The position numbers and the translations under genes were made by a program. Of a stretch of 28,708 nucleotides of DNA, positions 4,523 through 28,680 are shown piece after piece. The DNA is taken from IMG/VR virus record IMGVR_UViG_3300042465_003489, positions 1-28,708 of that record; one strand, given 5' to 3'. The notes under the pieces were generated by a model that was not told the DNA's origin, searched no databases, and worked only from the letters and a program-made list of their open reading frames with translations. Numbering within the stretch: the first letter of the stretch is position 1; every line of letters starts with the position of its first letter. The DNA comes from a virus.

Positions 4523-6064
4523 ATGGCAACTTACGGAAGTGGACAAATGCTTGGGTCAGGAATCAATCCTGAATCGTTTAAACAGGATTATAGTGGGTTT
4601 ACTCGCGCTGCTGAAATGCAAGCGCAGGGTATTGCTAGTCTTGGACAGAATATTAGTGGAGCTATTGAAGACTATGGTAAAATGAAGAAACAACAGCAAG
4701 AAGATGAACGCGCTGTCCAGAAATCTAAAAACGTAGCAAAAGCCATTGGTGATTTGATTCCAGATTTAAAACCAACAATTCAAAACTCTTTGACTATTCT
4801 TGACAATAAAGAACTTCCACTTAGTCAAAGAAAAGCTGAAGCAGAAGCAATTTCTGATATTCTTAATTTAGGAATTGGAGAAATCCGCAATCGTCAAGAT
4901 ATTGGATTTAAAGAAAGAGCTTTAAAAATTCAAGAAGATGAAGTTGCTGCAAGAAATGCCCCACAACCACCTTCTTTTGATTTTAAAGAAGTAAGTGTCC
5001 CCCATTCTGTTAATGGTGTTAAAGGAACTATACGTATGCTAGAAGATGCTAATTCTGGAAGAGTTAGAACATCAGATGGTAAAGAGTATTCTAATATTGA
5101 AGATGCAAAAGCTGGAAGAAATCCAATAGGACAAGGAGATAATGGGATTGATGCAGCATTAAATCTCCCTATTCCAGCACTAACTGGAAATTTAAACAGA
5201 GATGCGATTGCAATAAATAATGCTCAACAACTTCCTTCTACTAGCGAACTGGATAACACCCCAGCAATCATATTGACTGGTGGAATGCCAGATGGTCAAG
5301 ATAATCTCGCTAATGTTACTCCAGTCGTAACAGGAACACCAACAGTTACTAAAGAACCAACAATAGATGGTCCTCCTGGATTTGTCCCAGATGAAGTTCC
5401 AGCAGTCGAGCCAGAAACAACCGCTAGAATTATAACTGGAGAAGAAGCGTCTGCTCTCAATTTAAGTCCAGAAAATACTTACGAGGTTAAAATGAAAAAT
5501 GGAAAAGCTGTTGGATATACTGTTATAGATAAATCCGCAGCACCAATGAACGAAGCTGATAAAGTAAAATTAGATGAATCATCTTTAAGATCGGCAGCAG
5601 AGGCTGTTTATGCGATCGATACAATAAATGAATTAACTTCATCAAAAGGATTCTCCGATGTTTTTGGAGCAGGATATGGACTTAAATATATTTTTGGCAC
5701 TGAAGCTTACGATGCTGAAGCAGCAAGAGGAACGATTGTATCACTTGCAACTACTGACAGTATGAGGAAGTTTCAAGGATTAGGCTCTATGTCTGATGCT
5801 GAATTTGCAGTTGCTCAAGAAGCAGCTACACAAATTAAAAAAGCTGGGATTTCTGATAAAAAAGCTGCTCGAGAACTTAATAGATTAAGAAATTATTTTG
5901 CAGAATCAATTCGTAGAGCAGAAGATTTAGGTCGCATTCCAAAAGGAAGTTATCAAAAAATGCTTACTGGTCAAACTGGAAATCAAAATAACCCAAGCAC
6001 AGAAGCACCTATGTCTGCAACAGATAGATTTAGAGCTAAAGTTAAACCATTACCCTTACGATGA
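4523..6064 (+). CDS. Internal virion (ejection) protein, middle
   Basis: This 513-aa protein has a helical N-terminal half (residues about 30-150, many Glu/Lys/Gln) that could form coiled coil. A Pro/Thr-rich, probably flexible section spans about 205-300, and a second helical domain covers about 345-490. The start ATG at 4523 has a modest SD (AAGGA) 11 nt upstream. It ends with an ATGA overlap onto the 1347-aa gene, so translation of the two is probably coupled. By position it corresponds to the T7 gp15 / P22 gp20 slot. No enzymatic motif was seen. Confidence 0.6.
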   Translation: MATYGSGQMLGSGINPESFKQDYSGFTRAAEMQAQGIASLGQNISGAIEDYGKMKKQQQEDERAVQKSKNVAKAIGDLIPDLKPTIQNSLTILDNKELPLSQRKAEAEAISDILNLGIGEIRNRQDIGFKERALKIQEDEVAARNAPQPPSFDFKEVSVPHSVNGVKGTIRMLEDANSGRVRTSDGKEYSNIEDAKAGRNPIGQGDNGIDAALNLPIPALTGNLNRDAIAINNAQQLPSTSELDNTPAIILTGGMPDGQDNLANVTPVVTGTPTVTKEPTIDGPPGFVPDEVPAVEPETTARIITGEEASALNLSPENTYEVKMKNGKAVGYTVIDKSAAPMNEADKVKLDESSLRSAAEAVYAIDTINELTSSKGFSDVFGAGYGLKYIFGTEAYDAEAARGTIVSLATTDSMRKFQGLGSMSDAEFAVAQEAATQIKKAGISDKKAARELNRLRNYFAESIRRAEDLGRIPKGSYQKMLTGQTGNQNNPSTEAPMSATDRFRAKVKPLPLR

Positions 6065-9000
6065 CCCCAGAAGAAGAAAAAGCAGAGTATAATAAACTAG
6101 CTCCATCTGCAATAAATGAAGTTCTTGTTTCTATTGACAATAATTTTGCAGCAACTAGAAAAGCGCAAGATGATTATCGAAGCCAACTTCCTATTGGTGA
6201 TCCTCGCGCACTTGAGCCTTCATTAATTTCTGCTGAATTTCTTACCATAAAAGGGATGCAACAACGTGGTCTTCTTGATGACAAAGAAGAATCAACTAAA
6301 CTTGGTGAAGACTATCTTCTTATGGAAGATCAAGGCTTTATGCAAGATGGTAAATTAACAGAAAAAGGCATGGCTTTTATAGCTAATCCAGATGATTTGC
6401 TTCCTGTTGATGCAATCAATGACTGGACAATCTTAACTAATGCTATTGACCAAGATGAATCTGGAAAGTTTACAGATCCTATTGTTGAAAGTAAGTATCA
6501 ACAATTTCAGATAAGAAAAAATGAAGGACTTGATAAAGTAGAAGAAGGCAATACATTTAGTAATATTGGCAAAGGATTACTTAATATCGGAAAAGGTATT
6601 GCTAGTTTAGACACTTTTGGAACATTAGGGAAAGCTATAGCTGGAGGAGGATTTTCAATATCAGGCGAGATAGAAAAACGTGCAGCATTTGCATCAGGTG
6701 CGTTTAATGTAATGGCAACTACTCCTGTTAAGGCAACTGCCTTTGTTGGAAAACTAATCAACAGTAAAGATAAAGATGATCGAAATGATTTTATCGTTGC
6801 TACAAGAGTGAAATTAAATGAGGTTGCAACTAAGCCAGATACATTAGATGCAATTACTGGGACAACCGTTATGGCTGACAACTATGCCAGAACTCTCAAT
6901 GACTACAAAGAAAGATTTGGAGAAGCTGGAGAAAACAAATTACAAGAAGAATTGCTAAATGCAAAATCTGTTGGTGAAGTTGTTGGTGATCCATTAAACA
7001 TTCCTTTAGCAATAGCAACAGAAGGATTATCTCTTTTGGCTAAAACTGCAATGCTTGCAAGAACCAGTAAAGCAATAAATATTGCTAATAAAACTGCAAC
7101 TACAATTTCAAGACTTGAGAAAGCAGCACCAGTAATTGCAAATCAACTTAATGAAGCCACGGTTCTAAATCAGACTCTAGTTAAGCGACTAGCTGACGCT
7201 GTAAAAGTTAAAAATTCTTCTTTAGTTGCAGAATTAACCCCTCTAGTTGAATCTAGTACTACTGCATTAGATGACATAGCTCTAAAAGCAACGCAACTAG
7301 AAGAAGGACTTGCTGTTAATCGATTAGCAAGAACAGAAGCACTTACAGAGTTTGCCAATAAAACTAAACCTTTTGATGCTTCAAGAAAAATAGCTGCTGG
7401 TGCAGTTAAAGGCGTTGAAATTGCTGCTGAAAAAATGGGCAATACTCTTGCTTTTGTTAATAAGGGATTGCGTGCCGTTGAGAGAACAATAGGATTTTAT
7501 GGGGCGCAAAGAACAATTTCTACTGCATTGGGCATTGCATCTGGCCCTGTTGGACAAGGTGCTATTGGCGCGTATTATACTGCTAGAACTGGATTAGCTA
7601 TTGCTCCCAAAATTCTTAGTAAAACAGCAAGATTTGCAAATGTTGTTGGTGAGGAGTTAGCTCAGATGAAAAATAGCACTCCATTCTGGCGTAGAGTTGC
7701 TGCTAATGAAAACATAGGCGGCATTGGAAAGGCGATGGCAACAACGCTAGACTACGCATCTCCTATTGCTCGTTTTGGCGTTGGGAGTATAAAACAGGGT
7801 GCAAAACTTGCTCCAGCATTAGCTGTTTATGAAGCAATTAATAACGGCGGATTAAACGAACAAGCAATGAAGCGAGTTGGTGCTAATGCTTTAGTTTTTG
7901 GCGCATTTGCCAGAGTTGTTGGTGGCGGAAAACAAGACCTAACCAAAAGGCAATCAGGCGACTTCTATAATTATCGCAATAAACAACAAAAGCTAGGAGA
8001 AGATAAACTTGCAGCTTTTGATGCTATTCCAGACCAAGAAGTAAAACAATTCGTATCTACTTATGATGCAGCTTACCCAAACACTTGGGATTGGCAATTT
8101 ACAAAAGAAGGTAATAGCTCTTTTAATCCATCATCCAAGACAATTACAGTAAATGTAAATGACAAGTTAGGATTTATTCGTGCATTAACTTCTCATGAAA
8201 CGCTTCACTCATTGACGTTTAAGCACGGGATGGATGATTCTATTGTTTCGAGAATGCTTGGAGATGAGACAAGACCTGGTCTAGTAAGAGATATAAACGG
8301 CAATTTAGATAAAGACTTCAAACAGTTTTACAATGCTTACAATGAGCGTTTAGATGCTCAAGGATTACCAAAGATTGGCATTGAAGACGCGGCTGTTGAG
8401 TTCTTTACAGATAATGGAACGGCTTCATTGTTTGATGATGTCGTATCTGGAAAGATGACTAAAGCAGCAGTAAAAACTCCATTAAGAAGAAATATTGAGA
8501 ATATTTTTGATACTGTTTTTGCAGCAACTCCAATTATAAAAGACCTTCACTATAAGCTAGGAGGAGCTACTGATGTTAATGGGAATTTAGTTATGGGATC
8601 GGGACTTCTTGCTGATGGCATGAAAGAATTGCCAGAAGTAAAAGCGATGATTCGCAAGATGTATCGTGAATCTGCTGGATTACCAAAGTCAGCTATTAAG
8701 CCTGATGCGATGCGCGATGCTCCATCATCGAATCCAAAACACTATAAAGCGGCTGAGATCATAGATAGAATAAATAAGAAAAATGTCAAAGATGGAAAGC
8801 CGCTTGTTGATGGAGTAATGATTCCTGATAAAAAAGGCAATGGCACTGGCTTGCTTTCCGATGAGCATTTTCAAGCACTTGAAGAAGCAGGTGTAATCAA
8901 AGAAGGAGGTGCGCAAGAGCTTATTCATATTCAATCTACGTTTGACGCTGATAAAGCTGCTCTACTTGATTATACACCAATCGAACAAGGCCGTTCAGTC

Positions 9001-10104
9001 CAAACCGCAGGTAAGACAGCTAACAAGGTTAAGCCTATTGACTTTATGGTCAAGAACGGAAGGCTTTACATGATTGGAATGGATATTGTTCAGCTTGGAT
9101 TAAACATTAAAAGACTTGAAGGTAGAGCTTCCGCAATGGGAATGTCTCGCGCTGATGTGCTTACTGATATTGTAGAGACAGCAAAACTACATAAAAAAGG
9201 TCAGTCAACTGATGGGTATTTTAAAAGTGTTGGCGGCAAGAGTTGGCAAAAAAGAAAGAATTTGATCAATGCAATTCAAGGTCTTAATTCAAATGCACAA
9301 CGTGGAATCAATCCTGTATTTGACAAGATGGGTATGAATACTCAAACTGGGACATATCGCACGTTTGCTTACGATCGTGTTGATGGATTTACAGACCTTA
9401 CTGGGGATATGGTTATTCCGTATGGGAATAACGCTTACTACACATTGAAGGCAAATCTCATGCCACAAGCTCCACGTATCAACGTGAAGGGCGAGATCGT
9501 GAAGGATGCGCCAAACGTTCGCGTTTCTTCAATAGAAAATTTAGATACCGAGATTCCATTAGGTTTTAATCGAAAACCTGTTATTGACACCAGATTACAA
9601 AGTTTATCTGATGATGATTTTTGGATATATTCACGAGACATAAATTCCAAAGTCGATAAACTTGAAGGGTTATGGGATGATAACGAATCTCTTATAAATG
9701 ACCGAGCTTTTCGCAAAAAACTCGCCACAAGCCAAGATGAATTTTCAGCTATGGAAAATGAAAATTTTCGTCGAAGCATAGAACATGCTCCATCTGAAGA
9801 TATTGCTTACGAATTTAGGCAGTTAAAACCTTGGCTTGACGATGATAAAGTAAAGATGGCAATTTTAATAAATAACATTGGTCGAAGAGGACTTATGGAA
9901 GAAATGAGATCATTTCTTACTGAGTATGCAAAACGTTCGCCTGACCATGCTGAGATTCTTTCTAGTAAAATGGAAGATGCAGCTCGCGTAGTCCGTGAAA
10001 TGGGTGATAATCAACGTGGATCTGTGGAAGGAAATCTGCCAACTAATAATATCTCGTATATGCCTCAAGGTGAAACTAAAGCCAAGCCAACAAGCTCGCC
10101 TTAA
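6061..10104 (+). CDS. Large internal virion protein with metallopeptidase-like motif
   Basis: This 1347-aa protein is the largest in the window and occupies the slot of T7 gp16-type ejection proteins. Residues about 460-640 hold several Gly/Ala-rich hydrophobic stretches that could insert into a membrane. Residues 712-716 are HETLH, the HExxH zinc-metallopeptidase signature, preceded by a beta-strand-like KTITVNV segment as in minimal gluzincin-like domains. Downstream Glu775 or Glu780 could be the third zinc ligand. The C-terminal 450 residues are of mixed composition and unassigned. The start overlaps the previous stop (ATGA). The peptidase could trim cell-wall peptides or process virion proteins during entry; this is inference from one motif. 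Confidence 0.65.
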   Translation: MTPEEEKAEYNKLAPSAINEVLVSIDNNFAATRKAQDDYRSQLPIGDPRALEPSLISAEFLTIKGMQQRGLLDDKEESTKLGEDYLLMEDQGFMQDGKLTEKGMAFIANPDDLLPVDAINDWTILTNAIDQDESGKFTDPIVESKYQQFQIRKNEGLDKVEEGNTFSNIGKGLLNIGKGIASLDTFGTLGKAIAGGGFSISGEIEKRAAFASGAFNVMATTPVKATAFVGKLINSKDKDDRNDFIVATRVKLNEVATKPDTLDAITGTTVMADNYARTLNDYKERFGEAGENKLQEELLNAKSVGEVVGDPLNIPLAIATEGLSLLAKTAMLARTSKAINIANKTATTISRLEKAAPVIANQLNEATVLNQTLVKRLADAVKVKNSSLVAELTPLVESSTTALDDIALKATQLEEGLAVNRLARTEALTEFANKTKPFDASRKIAAGAVKGVEIAAEKMGNTLAFVNKGLRAVERTIGFYGAQRTISTALGIASGPVGQGAIGAYYTARTGLAIAPKILSKTARFANVVGEELAQMKNSTPFWRRVAANENIGGIGKAMATTLDYASPIARFGVGSIKQGAKLAPALAVYEAINNGGLNEQAMKRVGANALVFGAFARVVGGGKQDLTKRQSGDFYNYRNKQQKLGEDKLAAFDAIPDQEVKQFVSTYDAAYPNTWDWQFTKEGNSSFNPSSKTITVNVNDKLGFIRALTSHETLHSLTFKHGMDDSIVSRMLGDETRPGLVRDINGNLDKDFKQFYNAYNERLDAQGLPKIGIEDAAVEFFTDNGTASLFDDVVSGKMTKAAVKTPLRRNIENIFDTVFAATPIIKDLHYKLGGATDVNGNLVMGSGLLADGMKELPEVKAMIRKMYRESAGLPKSAIKPDAMRDAPSSNPKHYKAAEIIDRINKKNVKDGKPLVDGVMIPDKKGNGTGLLSDEHFQALEEAGVIKEGGAQELIHIQSTFDADKAALLDYTPIEQGRSVQTAGKTANKVKPIDFMVKNGRLYMIGMDIVQLGLNIKRLEGRASAMGMSRADVLTDIVETAKLHKKGQSTDGYFKSVGGKSWQKRKNLINAIQGLNSNAQRGINPVFDKMGMNTQTGTYRTFAYDRVDGFTDLTGDMVIPYGNNAYYTLKANLMPQAPRINVKGEIVKDAPNVRVSSIENLDTEIPLGFNRKPVIDTRLQSLSDDDFWIYSRDINSKVDKLEGLWDDNESLINDRAFRKKLATSQDEFSAMENENFRRSIEHAPSEDIAYEFRQLKPWLDDDKVKMAILINNIGRRGLMEEMRSFLTEYAKRSPDHAEILSSKMEDAARVVREMGDNQRGSVEGNLPTNNISYMPQGETKAKPTSSP

Positions 10105-10192
10105 AAAAAATTTACAGGGGGGGGACTAAATAAAAACAATAGTGTTGCAAATGGTATTGCAATAGCATTAAGTAGCTCTTGGGGAAAACAAA
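10103..10192 (+). promoter_or_regulatory. Gap before terminase with A8, G8 and a TTGCAA direct repeat
   Basis: This spacer holds an A8 run (10103-10110, overlapping the previous stop), a G8 run (10117-10124) and two TTGCAA boxes 12 bp apart (10145-10150 and 10157-10162). No convincing sigma70 promoter was found; TTTACA at 10111 has only a weak partner 18 bp downstream. The position directly before the terminase small subunit makes a regulatory or packaging-recognition role possible but unproven. Confidence 0.3.
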
Positions 10193-16393: not shown

Positions 16394-16681
16394 TTAGTAA
16401 GTAGGTAAAAATTGCAGTTCATCAAGCATATCGCTTGGATCTTCTTTCCCGTTTGCCATCGCCTCAATCCATAGTGCTGGGTCAATAGTTGCGGTGCGCT
16501 TCCATCCTGCTGCTAACAATTCTGTTTCTTGGATTTCATCTGCGGATAGGCATTTTATCACTCCATTCAGAGCGTAAACAAACAGCATTCGGTTTAGCTT
16601 AACCCACTCCATGTGCCTAGGTTTATTAGAGCCGTAATCTGGACTCCAATCTACGTGTCCTACTTGGAATTTATCGTTCAT
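16394..16681 (-). CDS. Hypothetical protein, minus-strand island gene 2
   Basis: The 95-aa product begins MNDKFQVGHVDWSPDYGSNK and contains an ADEIQETELLAAGWKRT segment with several Trp and acidic residues. It is read against the flanking structural genes. The leader is CCCCGCAACACAAAAAT then ATG with no SD; the CCCCGC-ACA core recurs before the neighbouring gene and before the gene at 28680. No domain, signal peptide or membrane segment is seen. The acidic, compact look would fit a small accessory or host-takeover protein, but that is not supported further. Confidence 0.6.
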   Translation of the reverse strand: MNDKFQVGHVDWSPDYGSNKPRHMEWVKLNRMLFVYALNGVIKCLSADEIQETELLAAGWKRTATIDPALWIEAMANGKEDPSDMLDELQFLPTY

Positions 16682-16698
16682 ATTTTTGTGTTGCGGGG

Positions 16699-17046
16699 TT
16701 ATTCAAATTGAGCTAAGTATTTTTCTCTGAATAGCTCTATGGATGCGGCGGATTCACGCAAGGCTTCCGCTAGTGACGTTGAGCAATCAGCTACATTCCC
16801 GTCACTGCATAGGTTCTCAATGAGTTTAATTGTAAAATCTTCAAGTGACAAATTCCATCCATTTTCAAGTCCATTAGCTGAAATGTAAAATCCTTGATCG
16901 TCAGGATAATAAGCCACATGAAGATCCCCAAGGTCTTCGGTGTAAATCTCACATGATGCTTCTTCAAATTGAGAAGTAGCCTTTCTCATGGCTTCAATAG
17001 CCAATTCCATCTTATCAACGCGCTTAATAGCTTTTTTGTTTTTCAT
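16699..17046 (-). CDS. Hypothetical protein, minus-strand island gene 1
   Basis: The start at 17046 (MKNKKAIKRVDKMELAIEAM) is preferred over an ATG at 17109 because it follows the leader TCCCGCAACAAACAACAAA, similar to other minus-strand leaders. The 115-aa product has a helical N-terminus, then DLGDLHVAYYPDDQGFYISA which looks like a small beta-sheet, and a helical C-terminus ending in FREKYLAQFE. Acidic overall. It is first in a two-gene unit with a promoter candidate about 80 bp upstream. No family is recognised. Confidence 0.6.
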   Translation of the reverse strand: MKNKKAIKRVDKMELAIEAMRKATSQFEEASCEIYTEDLGDLHVAYYPDDQGFYISANGLENGWNLSLEDFTIKLIENLCSDGNVADCSTSLAEALRESAASIELFREKYLAQFE

Positions 17047-17124
17047 TATGTTTGTTGTTTGTTGCGGGATTAGTTTCCCTTTTTTCTCGTTCAAATCAAG
17101 AACAATCACTTCGCTTCGCTCAAG

Positions 17125-17153
17125 TTTATACTACCTACAACTAGATCGGACAA
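17125..17153 (-). promoter_or_regulatory. Promoter candidate for the minus-strand island
   Basis: On the minus strand TTGTCC (17153-17148) and TATAAA (17130-17125) are separated by 17 bp. It lies about 80 bp upstream of the chosen start at 17046 and points toward it. Confidence 0.45.
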
Positions 17154-19684: not shown

Positions 19685-19707
19685 TCCTAACTAACTAAAA
19701 ATACATT

Positions 19708-20166
19708 ATGTCTAAACTTACTAATAACGAACGCTCCCCATACACTGATGTTATCCGACTTACGGCAACCGACCTGATTGCCATTGGCAACGGAGGAACC
19801 CGTCAAATCGCAACAATCCCTGCTGGGGGTGCTGTAAGCCTATGCGCTGTTACTAATACCGTTGATATTGTTGGTTCAACAACTTTATCTATTGGTATCG
19901 GTACAACTCTTGCTACTCCAGTAGAGTTTATCAGCGCACTTGATGTGGATGGTGCAACTGTTGGTCTTCCAACATTTAACACTGGAACTTCATTTGTTCA
20001 AACTGCTGGAAATACCACCATTAAAGGAGGCGTATTGCCAGTTGGAGCAGCGTCTACAGCTACACCAATCTATATTAAAGTGACTGATGCTGCTGTTACA
20101 AGCATCACTGCTGGTGAAATACTGATTGGTATTGATATTCTTGATCTTACTCAGTTTCAAGCCTAA
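19708..20166 (+). CDS. Head decoration-like protein
   Basis: The 152-aa product is almost entirely beta-prone (Thr, Val, Ile, Gly, Ala) with very few charges, for example IGNGGTRQIATIPAGGAVSL and later TPIYIKVTDAAVTSITAGEI. A small beta-barrel-like protein directly after the major capsid gene is usually a capsid decoration or cement protein. The leader CTAACTAAAAATACATTATG lacks an SD. It ends just before a strong terminator, so scaffold, capsid and this gene appear to share one transcription unit. A minor tail role is the alternative. Confidence 0.6.
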   Translation: MSKLTNNERSPYTDVIRLTATDLIAIGNGGTRQIATIPAGGAVSLCAVTNTVDIVGSTTLSIGIGTTLATPVEFISALDVDGATVGLPTFNTGTSFVQTAGNTTIKGGVLPVGAASTATPIYIKVTDAAVTSITAGEILIGIDILDLTQFQA

Positions 20167-22979: not shown

Positions 22980-23258
22980 ATGAAATTTGACTTGCTCACA
23001 GAATTTTCCATTGGTATTTCAAAAACAATTACGTTGTTTTGCAGTAGTGGAGCGAGTTTTCTTTTATCCACCGAAATCCCCGATGATCTTGGCGTGGCTA
23101 AATACGCTAGTGCGCTGACAGGCTGGGGGCTTGCGATCGCTTGTATCTTTGTGCTGACTAGGACAGTTAAGCATCTGTTCGAGAAGCTGGAAAAAAAGGA
23201 TGACTACATCAAGGAGCTGCACGAAACAGCATTGAAAAAAGCAGAGGAAAGCAAATGA
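22980..23258 (+). CDS. Holin candidate
   Basis: The 92-aa product has two probable membrane segments, residues about 12-30 and 43-62, and a highly charged C-terminal tail (KLEKKDDYIKELHETALKKA). This two-segment plus charged-tail layout, with an amidase gene less than 700 bp downstream, fits a small phage holin that times lysis. An inner-membrane spanin-like role is an alternative because of the helical tail. It overlaps the next start (ATGA) and carries its SD (GAGGAAAG). Confidence 0.65.
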   Translation: MKFDLLTEFSIGISKTITLFCSSGASFLLSTEIPDDLGVAKYASALTGWGLAIACIFVLTRTVKHLFEKLEKKDDYIKELHETALKKAEESK

Positions 23259-23728
23259 ATTACCGCATCTTACATCCGACAAAAGAAGGCAAGCGCAAAT
23301 ATCGCTTTGCGGCAGTGGGTGTGAATTGCACGGCACTAAAAGGAAGGCTTTCACAACATCCGAATGTAGAATTTTATAGTGCCGATGGAATCCTCCGCGC
23401 ATGGATTAAGAACGGATGGATTTTTGCAACGAACGAGTATTTTTGGAACGGATGCAGCCCGAAGAAATACGTCGGGATTCACCCGTTTGGATTTTGGGCG
23501 GGAACACCAGACTTTGCTGGCACCATCGAAGCGTCATTTTGGCACGATGTTCTTTTCCAGTTTGCGGCAGTCGGCATGTATGATTTGAACGATGCAAACT
23601 ATCAATTTCTGCACCTCATGGAGCGCAATGGCTTTTTGCTTGCCAGTCATTATTTTGACGCAGTGGAAGCTTATGGCGACAAGTATTTTGGAAAAGACTC
23701 AGAAGGCGTTTATGTAAAAATCTTATGA
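23255..23728 (+). CDS. DUF1353-like protein in lysis cassette
   Basis: The 157-aa product shows the DUF1353-type pattern: an aromatic beta region (NEYFWNGCSPKKYVGIHPFG), a SFWHDVLFQF segment with a conserved His-Asp pair, and then NDANYQFLHLMERNGF. Members of this family are common in phages and often lie near lysis genes; their function is unknown. SD GAGGAAAG precedes the start. Both ends are coupled by ATGA overlaps. Confidence 0.6.
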   Translation: MNYRILHPTKEGKRKYRFAAVGVNCTALKGRLSQHPNVEFYSADGILRAWIKNGWIFATNEYFWNGCSPKKYVGIHPFGFWAGTPDFAGTIEASFWHDVLFQFAAVGMYDLNDANYQFLHLMERNGFLLASHYFDAVEAYGDKYFGKDSEGVYVKIL

Positions 23729-23874
23729 AACTACTAATTGTAAATATTTTAGCACTTGCTTACTCAAGCTGCACATTAACGGTCAACCCAGATGGAAGCC
23801 GAACCTACGGAACGGACGCAAAAACGGCAGCGATCATCGCGGCGCAAATCGTGGAGGCTGAGAGCGGGAAATGA
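23725..23874 (+). CDS. 49-aa small lipoprotein, o-spanin (Rz1-like) candidate
   Basis: The start overlaps the previous stop and its stop overlaps the amidase start (ATGA at both ends), which supports the gene despite its length. The product begins MKLLIVNILALAYSSC, a short hydrophobic signal ending in a lipobox-like SSC with Cys16 as lipidation site. The -3 residue is Tyr, so the box is imperfect. The mature part is about 34 residues. Small outer-membrane lipoproteins in lysis cassettes are usually Rz1-type spanins, but no partner inner-membrane spanin is clearly seen unless the holin candidate serves. It implies a Gram-negative host. Confidence 0.65.
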   Translation: MKLLIVNILALAYSSCTLTVNPDGSRTYGTDAKTAAIIAAQIVEAESGK

Positions 23875-24422
23875 AACCGATCATCATCATTGATCCTGGT
23901 CACGGCATGGGTAACCGTAAGCCAGGGCGTTACGATTGCGGGGCAGAATCAAACGGCATTACCGAAGCGGAAATCGTGATGACTTGGGCAAATGAATTGC
24001 GCGACATTCTGCGTTTCCGAAAGGTGGCAGTTGTTAGAACTCGCACCGATGATAAAGACCCTTGCAGCATTTCGGCACGGGCAAGAATCGCCAAGGCTTA
24101 TAATGGCACGATTATGATCAGTTTGCATTGCAACGCAGCAAACGGCAAAGCTAGCGGAACTGAAACATTCTATCGCGGTGAAACTAATAAATCAATGGCG
24201 CTGGATTTGAATCTTGCCGTATGCGCTGGATTACTAACTGTGAATCGCGGAGTGAAAACCGAGAATCAATCTCAGCATTCAACTCTTGCCGTTATGTCGT
24301 TTCAGCCATGCTTTTTGATCGAGCTTGGATTTATCGATCACGCTGGAGATCGTGCGAAAATGCTTAACGCGGAAAAGCGCAAGGCAACGTGCAATGCTAT
24401 TGCAAATCTGCTACTTGAATAA
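23871..24422 (+). CDS. N-acetylmuramoyl-L-alanine amidase (endolysin)
   Basis: This 183-aa protein matches Amidase_3 zinc hydrolases: DPGHG with His11 as zinc ligand, Glu32 or Glu34 as second ligand, SLHCNA with His86 as third ligand and FLIELGF with Glu151 as catalytic base. The length covers just the catalytic domain, with no cell-wall-binding domain or signal peptide, so a holin would be needed to reach the peptidoglycan. It cuts the bond between MurNAc and L-Ala. The start overlaps the small lipoprotein stop. Confidence 0.9.
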   Translation: MKPIIIIDPGHGMGNRKPGRYDCGAESNGITEAEIVMTWANELRDILRFRKVAVVRTRTDDKDPCSISARARIAKAYNGTIMISLHCNAANGKASGTETFYRGETNKSMALDLNLAVCAGLLTVNRGVKTENQSQHSTLAVMSFQPCFLIELGFIDHAGDRAKMLNAEKRKATCNAIANLLLE

Positions 24423-26887: not shown

Positions 26888-27112
26888 TTAGTGATCTTGG
26901 CTGTTCTCCCAAGAGAAATTCCATGGTTCGGATTCGCTCCATGGAACAAGATCGCGAAGCTCTGCGGCGATCTTCCGCGCCTCGTTTCGCTCACGTTCAA
27001 GGGACTCACAAAGATCCCAAATATCTCCCTCGGTTGCGCGGTGGATGTGGTTTTCCCGCAGGTCGCGGAGTTGGTCTGTTTCTGGCGTGTCGTTCATTTT
27101 GATTGTGTTCAT
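26888..27112 (-). CDS. Small acidic helical phage protein
   Basis: The 74-aa product contains DTPETDQLRDLREN and CESLERERNEARKIAAELRD, the ETDxL...LERERNEAR layout common to small phage proteins that I recognise but cannot assign a function to. The start at 27112 gives an ATGA overlap with the helicase loader and follows ACCAAAACAAA; a second in-frame ATG at 27097 with leader AATCAAA is an alternative. Confidence 0.7.
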   Translation of the reverse strand: MNTIKMNDTPETDQLRDLRENHIHRATEGDIWDLCESLERERNEARKIAAELRDLVPWSESEPWNFSWENSQDH

Positions 27113-27693
27113 TTTGTTTTGGTTCTGTAGCTTTTCCAGTCAAACGATAGTTTCGCCCCGTTCTCCTCGATCCGATCAATCACGGCTGGAGATAGCGTAG
27201 ATGCTAATCTCTCCCATGTATAGTTCGAAATCAGGATTGTCGGCATATCGGCGGCATATCGCGCATCAATGATGGCGGTTAGCTGTCTATCCTCGTATTG
27301 TGTTTCCCCACGCTCCTGGACTTCATCAATCACCAGCAAGGCGGCTTCACAGTAATCCGACACAACTTCCTTTTCTGATTTGCCAGATCCAGAAGTGTAA
27401 GTAGATTTGATCGTTGAGAACAAGTTCACCGCTGTGGTGTAAACCATCGGGCGTTTCTTCGTGCTTGTCGTCCATCCAATGCCGCCATTGCTGATTGTTG
27501 GACGTTTGGACTTATGCGCTCTAGCTACCTCCCAAGCCATGCGTGTCTTGCCGGTGCCATATCCTCCGTAAAGGATCGTAATGCCCCCAGAATCGGTTGT
27601 CGCGAGTGCCTTGGCATAGTTTGCCAACCACCCGTCACCTGTCGCTGGTGGGGCATCCTCGTAGCGTTTTGGAAATCCTCTTAGTGTATTCAT
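27109..27693 (-). CDS. DnaC-like helicase loader / AAA+ ATPase
   Basis: This 194-aa AAA+ protein has Walker A GGYGTGKT (residues 43-50), Walker B LLVIDE with Asp123-Glu124, a sensor-like ISN at 155-157 and an arginine-finger-like IDRIEENG (Arg174). Size and order fit the DnaC/IstB-like loaders phages use to place the replicative helicase. The expected helicase gene is not in the window and may lie beyond the edge, or the host helicase may be used. It is coupled to both neighbours by ATGA overlaps. Confidence 0.85.
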   Translation of the reverse strand: MNTLRGFPKRYEDAPPATGDGWLANYAKALATTDSGGITILYGGYGTGKTRMAWEVARAHKSKRPTISNGGIGWTTSTKKRPMVYTTAVNLFSTIKSTYTSGSGKSEKEVVSDYCEAALLVIDEVQERGETQYEDRQLTAIIDARYAADMPTILISNYTWERLASTLSPAVIDRIEENGAKLSFDWKSYRTKTK

Positions 27694-27968
27694 TTTTGAT
27701 TGAGTATATCGGATATTGTGTAGCTCCCACCTTTTTTCAATAAGTGCGAGTAATCAACTGGAAGTGTCGGCTCGATCTTCTCTGAGTCAGGTGTGCATAA
27801 AAGCAATTCTGCTGCTTCGCTTATACTGCATTTCAATCGAGTGGCTAATCTTCTCATGCGCTGATACGTTTCCTGCTCCAGACGCATGGTTACAGTTGCT
27901 TTCTGCTCCCATGGTTTCTTTCTTTTCCGTCCAGTTACAATGTTAAATCCTTTGTCGCTTGCTCTCAT
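27690..27968 (-). CDS. Ribbon-helix-helix-like protein
   Basis: The 92-aa product has a basic N-terminus (GRKRKKPWEQK), then ATVTMRLEQETYQRMRRLAT and SISEAAELLL, which reads as strand-helix-helix of the Arc/CopG class. The C-terminal 35 residues are unlike the family and end in TISDILNQK. Placed directly upstream of the helicase loader and coupled by ATGA, it could regulate the operon or assist replication. Confidence 0.7.
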   Translation of the reverse strand: MRASDKGFNIVTGRKRKKPWEQKATVTMRLEQETYQRMRRLATRLKCSISEAAELLLCTPDSEKIEPTLPVDYSHLLKKGGSYTISDILNQK

Positions 27969-28165
27969 AGACTGTATTGGGCGAAGGTTTTTCCATTGCG
28001 CTTAATCTTCGTCGTTTTGACGTTAATTCCCTCGCTGCGTAGTTCAGCTATCCGCGCAGCTAGTCGCATACATCCCCACTTCTCTAATGCTTCTAGCGGG
28101 GTGATGTTGTAGCCGTCTAATATCCACTCTTTTATCTTGCTTGTTGTGCTTGGTTCTTTGTTCAT
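27965..28165 (-). CDS. Helix-turn-helix protein
   Basis: The 66-aa product contains YNITPLEALEKWGCMRLAAR followed by IAELRSEGINVKT and a C-terminal beta-hairpin. ITPLEAL...WGCxRLAARIxxLR is the pattern of a small winged-HTH domain found in many phage proteins. A DNA-binding regulatory or replication role is likely. Both ends are coupled by ATGA. Confidence 0.8.
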   Translation of the reverse strand: MNKEPSTTSKIKEWILDGYNITPLEALEKWGCMRLAARIAELRSEGINVKTTKIKRNGKTFAQYSL

Positions 28166-28320
28166 GCTTCATCCTCCTGTTCGCGTTCTCCCATGAAATC
28201 GTGCATCTGCTCGATCTTTTCTTGTTTCATTTCCCACTCCCATTCCTCTTGGTCGCGCTTACGGTTTAGTTCATAGGACAGGTTAAGGATTGATACTGCT
28301 TGTTGTGTTGGTTCGTTCAT
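28162..28320 (-). CDS. 52-aa acidic helical protein
   Basis: The product (MNEPTQQAVSILNLSYELNR at the start, EQEDEA at the end) is Glu/Gln/Lys-rich with a Trp pair in QEEWEWEMKQEK and looks like one long helix. Its stop overlaps the HTH gene start (ATGA), and its ATG comes one base after the previous stop (TAATATG). The leader carries ACCAAACAACAAACAC. Function unknown. Confidence 0.65.
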   Translation of the reverse strand: MNEPTQQAVSILNLSYELNRKRDQEEWEWEMKQEKIEQMHDFMGEREQEDEA

Positions 28321-28321
28321 A

Positions 28322-28495
28322 TTAGTTTTTGTGTTTGTTGTTTGGTCTTTCCATTGATGCTGCTCTGGCTAGGCAGAATGCCATAACAAGGACAAGTGCT
28401 GCCAAGAGAATAAATGCTATGATCATGTTTCCGCTGGCTAGGCAGAATGCCATGACTAGCGCAAATACAGCGAAGAGAATAATTGCGATGATCAT
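28322..28495 (-). CDS. 57-aa membrane protein of two duplicated TM segments
   Basis: The start overlaps the upstream stop (ATGA) and has a purine-rich AGAGGTGCGGAG before it. The product is two near-identical hydrophobic segments, residues 1-20 (MIIAIILFAVFALVMAFCLA) and 24-43 (MIIAFILLAALVLVMAFCLA), joined by SGN, then a basic tail (MERPNNKHKN). The tandem copies arise from a 69-bp DNA duplication. It should sit in the inner membrane as a hairpin. In this early-type operon it could alter host membrane traits, for example superinfection exclusion, but no family is recognised. Confidence 0.7.
   Translation of the reverse strand: MIIAIILFAVFALVMAFCLASGNMIIAFILLAALVLVMAFCLARAASMERPNNKHKN
28358..28495 (-). 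repeat. Tandem duplication, 2 x 69 bp, in frame
   Basis: Two copies, 28427-28495 and 28358-28426, share a 20-bp block around GGCTAGGCAGAATGCCAT (plus strand) and similar flanks with point differences. The period is 23 codons, so the repeat keeps the reading frame and doubles one transmembrane segment. Confidence 0.85.
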
Positions 28496-28680
28496 AACTC
28501 CGCACCTCTTTCTACTAATTCAATTACAAAGGAAGAAAATAATCGCCCTTTGCTTTTCGCTATTTTTTTCAGCTTGGCGATTGTTTCCATCGGCATCTTT
28601 ATGCACACGATTTGGTGCGTCTTTTCTGTCATGTCTTCAGCGATAATCTCGCTACGTTTTTTTGTTTTCTTGGTATACAT
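28492..28680 (-). CDS. Ribbon-helix-helix-like regulator candidate
   Basis: The 62-aa product starts with a basic MYTKKTKKRSEII tail followed by HQIVCIKMPMETIAKLKKIA and FSSFVIELVERG, a strand-helix-helix order typical of Arc/MetJ-class DNA-binding proteins. It is the first gene visible of the minus-strand operon. Its leader CCCCGCCACAAGG resembles the leaders of the minus-strand island near 16.4-17.1 kb. The window ends 28 nt upstream, so its promoter is probably outside or partly visible. Confidence 0.7.
   Translation of the reverse strand: MYTKKTKKRSEIIAEDMTEKTHQIVCIKMPMETIAKLKKIAKSKGRLFSSFVIELVERGAEL

Follow-up and report, generated by a model that had tools for sequence, protein, structure and literature searches.

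The window analysed here is the whole 28,708-nt stretch of the IMG/VR virus record IMGVR_UViG_3300042465_003489. Near its right end, an open reading frame (28322-28495, stop included) encodes a 57-aa membrane microprotein that has a single-copy homologue in another phage. The preliminary description had placed the gene correctly; it is read from the minus strand, 28495 to 28322, and translates as MIIAIILFAVFALVMAFCLASGNMIIAFILLAALVLVMAFCLARAASMERPNNKHKN. The product runs MIIAIILFAVFALVMAFCLASGN-MIIAFILLAALVLVMAFCLARAASMERPNNKHKN, has cysteines at residues 18 and 41, and consists of two 23-aa copies of a membrane segment followed by an 11-aa basic tail. Copy 1 (28427-28495) comprises predicted transmembrane residues 1-20 and the linker SGN, whose codons (28427-28435) align with the bases directly 5' of the copy 1 start: the bases preceding the ATG are CGGAGTT for copy 1 versus CGGAAAC, the linker DNA itself, for copy 2. 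Copy 2 (28358-28426) comprises predicted transmembrane residues 24-43 and RAA, and opens with an ATG of its own (Met24), from which internal initiation could give a 34-aa product of ancestral length. The tail, SMERPNNKHKN with the stop (28322-28357), is conserved in the homologue as SMERPKNKQK. The A-rich 3' end of the gene (CAACAAACACAAAAACTAATATG) doubles as the leader of the next gene, and because it is A-rich like the leaders of many genes here, leader function may shape the terminal NNKHKN as much as protein function does. That the membrane segment is duplicated in tandem, in frame and with a 69-bp unit, as had been proposed from first reading, is borne out by the reading frame and by independent repeat detection, and we hold this anatomy of the gene and its duplication with high confidence.

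The gene sits in a minus-strand operon. Immediately upstream, a 62-aa gene (28492-28680) overlaps the microprotein start with its stop in a 4-bp ATGA (28492-28495). This neighbor had been taken for a DNA-binding protein gene, and it does resemble one, although through weak Arc/ribbon-helix-helix-like matches only (Pfam E 0.004, below the cut-off); it has no close relative in IMG/VR, and a clear winged-HTH gene is found two genes further along. Downstream, on the same strand, lie a charged 52-aa gene of no family (28162-28320), the winged-HTH (HTH_39) gene (27965-28165; E 9e-10), which is conserved in most relatives, a 92-aa gene that, together with the loader, is conserved among relatives (27690-27968), and a DnaC-like helicase loader (27109-27693; PHROG E 6e-38). 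The operon's promoter lies outside the window; its content of replication and regulation genes points to an early-type operon, in agreement with the preliminary description. Among the window genes, the mean A content of the 20 bases before starts is 0.42 vs 0.30 overall, and a Shine-Dalgarno-like core is present at only 7 of the 43. Such scarcity of cores, with A-rich leaders, resembles hosts in which initiation is largely independent of Shine-Dalgarno sequences.

A single-copy homologue and a mobile gene

The microprotein gene was found in IMG/VR on two contigs, L002 (IMGVR_UViG_3300042549_003222) and L003 (IMGVR_UViG_3300037493_002653), and on no third, by scans that used the 57-aa protein, an alignment of three rows and two DNA words. 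This makes three sequences of the gene in all, two of them from nearly the same phage, as L002 matches the window at 97-99% identity along most of its length. The L002 contig starts at the copy junction, four bases ahead of the linker DNA CGGAAAC, and so includes the linker and copy 2, the contig end leaving the copy 1 region out. No relative of the microprotein was found in GTDB genomes, which were also searched with the DnaC alignment without finding a relative, and tblastn of the microprotein gave no match in 50,697 phage records or in plasmid records. In the otherwise 97-99% identical contig G002 (L068/L069), three blocks of the window have no nucleotide match: 16603-17130, in place of which there is about 100 bp, 4707-10192, which spans large plus-strand structural genes, and 19704-20160.

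L003 comes from another phage, whose similarity to the window is only patchy. At positions 5962-6063 it encodes a 33-aa homologue (MIIAFIILAIFALVMAFCLTRAASMERPKNKQK), the kind of single-copy relative that the preliminary description had proposed to look for, which is 79% identical to copy 2 and 65% to copy 1. An in-frame TAG directly abuts its ATG, and therefore no second copy is fused upstream. The two genes have in common the helix, the MAFCL..RAASMERP end, the A-rich gene end and an operon-internal setting; they differ in that L003 has one copy, 33 aa in length, behind an upstream gene of the 81-aa MSIFDDTP family. The existence of this single-copy gene shows that the one-helix protein is a real gene, of which the window carries the duplicated form. 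Copy 2 and L003 show 17 differences over 33 codons (dS 0.60, dN 0.11), 12 of the 17 at third positions (binomial P 0.002; count over the compared stretch), and under random substitution the joint chance of so few residue changes and such high hydrophobicity is about 0.001. Frame, hydrophobicity and tail are thus conserved between the phages; conservation of the frame had been set beforehand as a test of the proposed protein.

These comparisons bear on whether the frame is translated at all. It is a short ORF near the end of a record, and no Shine-Dalgarno sequence lies at a clearly canonical distance from its start, as would fit an untranslated repeat, whether a feature of the DNA or RNA or an artefact of assembly. 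This reading is very improbable: frame and tail are conserved in another phage with codon-position bias, the ATGA overlap couples the microprotein to the upstream gene, the region has no Rfam match, and the copies differ at 15 sites, which excludes an assembly echo as the source of the repeat.

The distribution of the gene is patchy. The winged-HTH gene, the 92-aa gene and the loader recur in most of the 58 loci found via the loader, and of these loci only the L002 contig has the 52-aa gene and the microprotein. In L003 the preceding gene belongs to an 81-aa family present at 30 loci, and the others that were readable past this gene lack the microprotein and have other genes there. Judged by its surroundings, the microprotein gene is a mobile accessory gene, because its neighbors differ in the two phages and it is absent from nearly all relatives of each neighborhood. 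One-helix microproteins as a class are ordinary in the early regions of relatives, since other, unrelated ones are present there.

Two other features were seen in these neighborhoods. About 10-75 bases past the stop of the MSIFDDTP gene, loci L111-L119 carry a recurrent intergenic element of the type GTTGCGACAG...AAACACTC...GCCCTGAGAATCGCAACAGGGC. It contains an inverted repeat, GCCCTG/CAGGGC, as well as repeats of a CGCAACAG/CGCGACAG-like word, and precedes differing downstream genes. The L003 operon also has a second membrane gene (4530-4769, 79 aa), whose helix ends AFCLAKAA, compared with AFCLARAA in the microprotein; we considered it as a paralogue and set this aside, as the common motif is short and no other relative of the 79-aa gene was found.

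Divergence of the copies and history of the duplication

The 69-bp tandem repeat is 81% identical in its own register and has the top TRF score in the window (192). The copies had been called almost identical; they are similar, but this wording is too strong, with 15 of 69 bases and 8 of 23 residues differing (15/23 identical). In a survey of 147 fetched sequences (1.12 Mb of phage DNA, partly overlapping), no short ORF but that of the microprotein had a whole transmembrane segment duplicated in frame with diverged copies. A repeat of another kind, a 48-bp tandem array of 5.4 copies that adjoins or is fused to an early gene, occurs at L026:2410-2668 and is open in several frames, as Ala-Leu/Met or Gly-Ser/Tyr repeats.

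Selection on both copies is tested by one comparison of 15 differences. Between the copies, dS is 0.42 and dN 0.21 (dN/dS about 0.5), and 8 of the 15 differences fall at third codon positions (P 0.09). The preliminary description had set beforehand a test of whether substitutions between the copies preserve the hydrophobic pattern. Hydrophobicity is retained better than under random substitution (P about 0.012-0.015), but synonymous changes are not significantly favored (P about 0.2); for hydrophobicity together with few residue changes the joint P is about 0.005. All of these substitution tests assume independent sites, and few changes underlie each.

The same figures leave some room, though rather less than an even chance, for a near-neutral length variant in which the working product is the ancestral one-helix form of 33-34 aa, made from Met24 or supplied by a tolerated longer form, and having two copies adds nothing. 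Copy 2 retains an ATG, the tail and the length of the ancestral form, the synonymous bias between the copies is weak, and the accessory genes in this region vary in presence from one relative to another, all as expected of such a variant. Yet after roughly 0.4 synonymous changes per site both copies are still open and equally hydrophobic (3.08 and 3.09), and the helix core of copy 1 is the least changed of the three.

Over the 60 bases of the helix core, private differences number 1 in copy 1, 6 in copy 2 and 5 in L003, with 3 sites where all three differ, and copy 1 is here the copy closer to the L003 gene. The two copies have diverged from each other about as much as copy 1 has from L003, so that the duplication is, on these counts, of roughly the same age as the split from the L003 allele rather than very recent. 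The repeat reaches seven bases 5' of each ATG. The simplest history would be a 69-bp tandem duplication, from CGGA... through ...CTAGCCAG, that turned the former pre-start bases into in-frame codons for Ser-Gly-Asn. Less simply, two diverged alleles could have fused, or L003 could have gone from two copies to a single one, and the three sequences are compatible with either polarity, duplication or collapse.

Predicted topology

Two 18-residue segments of the microprotein are very hydrophobic (mean 3.2, Kyte-Doolittle). AlphaFold run on the single sequence predicts helices at residues 2-21 and 24-48 (mean pLDDT 78), with a pTM of 0.48 that, obtained without an alignment, does not establish helix packing; fold searches with this model returned chance-level matches to two-helix proteins only and were uninformative. 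Basic residues occur only after copy 2. Residue 21 is Ser in copy 1, and Arg is found at the matching place in copy 2 and L003. By the positive-inside rule the tail would be cytoplasmic, and because copy 1 has lost its charged flank, a helical hairpin with both ends inside is likely. The three-residue linker, the two predicted helices and the charge found only after copy 2 suggest that the copies may be antiparallel, in opposite orientation.

This arrangement would follow from the duplication itself. Duplication of a membrane unit can set the copies antiparallel, and a unit with an odd number of helices does so by direct fusion (PMC9574504). EmrE/SMR and DUF606 are dual-topology or inverted-repeat membrane proteins (PMC9574504), and like internally duplicated antiparallel proteins the microprotein has two homologous membrane units per chain, together with a single-copy homologue. 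However, the EmrE/SMR and DUF606 units have several helices, with transport functions in SMR, whereas in the microprotein, of 57 aa, the unit is a single helix. Many membrane proteins are believed to have gained antiparallel repeats through internal duplication, of which the usual cases are old and large. Here, the one-helix form of 33 aa and the two-helix form of 57 aa, each from a different phage, would allow topology, charge bias and function to be compared before and after duplication.

The suggestion in the preliminary description that Cys18 and Cys41 could pair fares poorly within one chain. In the predicted hairpin, Cys18 would lie near the turn and Cys41 near the opposite, cytoplasmic face, so an intramolecular disulfide is unlikely and we rejected it on this geometry. 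Contact between chains is possible.

A putative role in the host membrane

PADLOC, PHROGs, Pfam, NCBIfam and PDB gave no credible match for the microprotein, and we found no literature on phage membrane microproteins. A role in lysis is improbable. The size and two helices would suit a small holin, and holin, antiholin and spanin part can all be considered; there is also a PHROG match to an Rz-like spanin family, at chance level (E 0.03-0.05). We rejected this role on location: the gene belongs to the minus-strand replication and regulation operon, outside the late region, while a separate cassette on the opposite strand (22980-24422, plus) has its own candidates, namely a 92-aa protein that contains a membrane segment, a 49-aa protein whose start resembles that of a lipoprotein, and an Amidase_3 endolysin (23871-24422, plus). 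The microprotein also lacks a spanin-like periplasmic domain.

We infer a host-membrane-directed accessory protein, with superinfection exclusion as one option. The preliminary description had named superinfection exclusion, membrane-potential control and anti-defence as candidates, and each would be a putative role. Phage superinfection exclusion proteins include P22 SieA, HK97 gp15 and Tuc2009 Sie2009 (PMC10883804). By analogy, SieA and gp15 would be the nearest functional model, as phage-encoded inner-membrane proteins (gp15 by prediction), the microprotein likewise being a predicted membrane protein. The likeness has limits: SieA is 162-164 aa long, is predicted to form three helices and is expressed by prophages, whereas the microprotein has 57 aa and two predicted helices, and no sequence relation to known exclusion proteins was found. 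This assignment to a role class is doubtful.

Taken as a whole, we tentatively favor a duplicated accessory microprotein that forms a two-helix hairpin and has a role in the host membrane. The ancestral product would have been a one-helix inner-membrane microprotein of about 33 aa, encoded by a rare mobile gene of tailed phages, with its N-terminus out and its basic tail in. In the window phage, a 69-bp segment holding the seven pre-start bases, the start codon and the helix would then have been duplicated in frame, giving a two-helix hairpin with both ends cytoplasmic, with Met24 perhaps still serving as a start for the ancestral short form. As an early product, the microprotein would most likely insert in the host inner membrane and act by helix-helix contact with a membrane component of the host or of an incoming phage, the likeliest roles being superinfection exclusion or host take-over. 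The fuller proposition, that a single in-frame duplication turned one helix into an antiparallel hairpin, with both copies selected, the one-copy form extant and a host-membrane role, is unlikely to hold in every part. For phage biology, the gene is one more rare accessory membrane microprotein.
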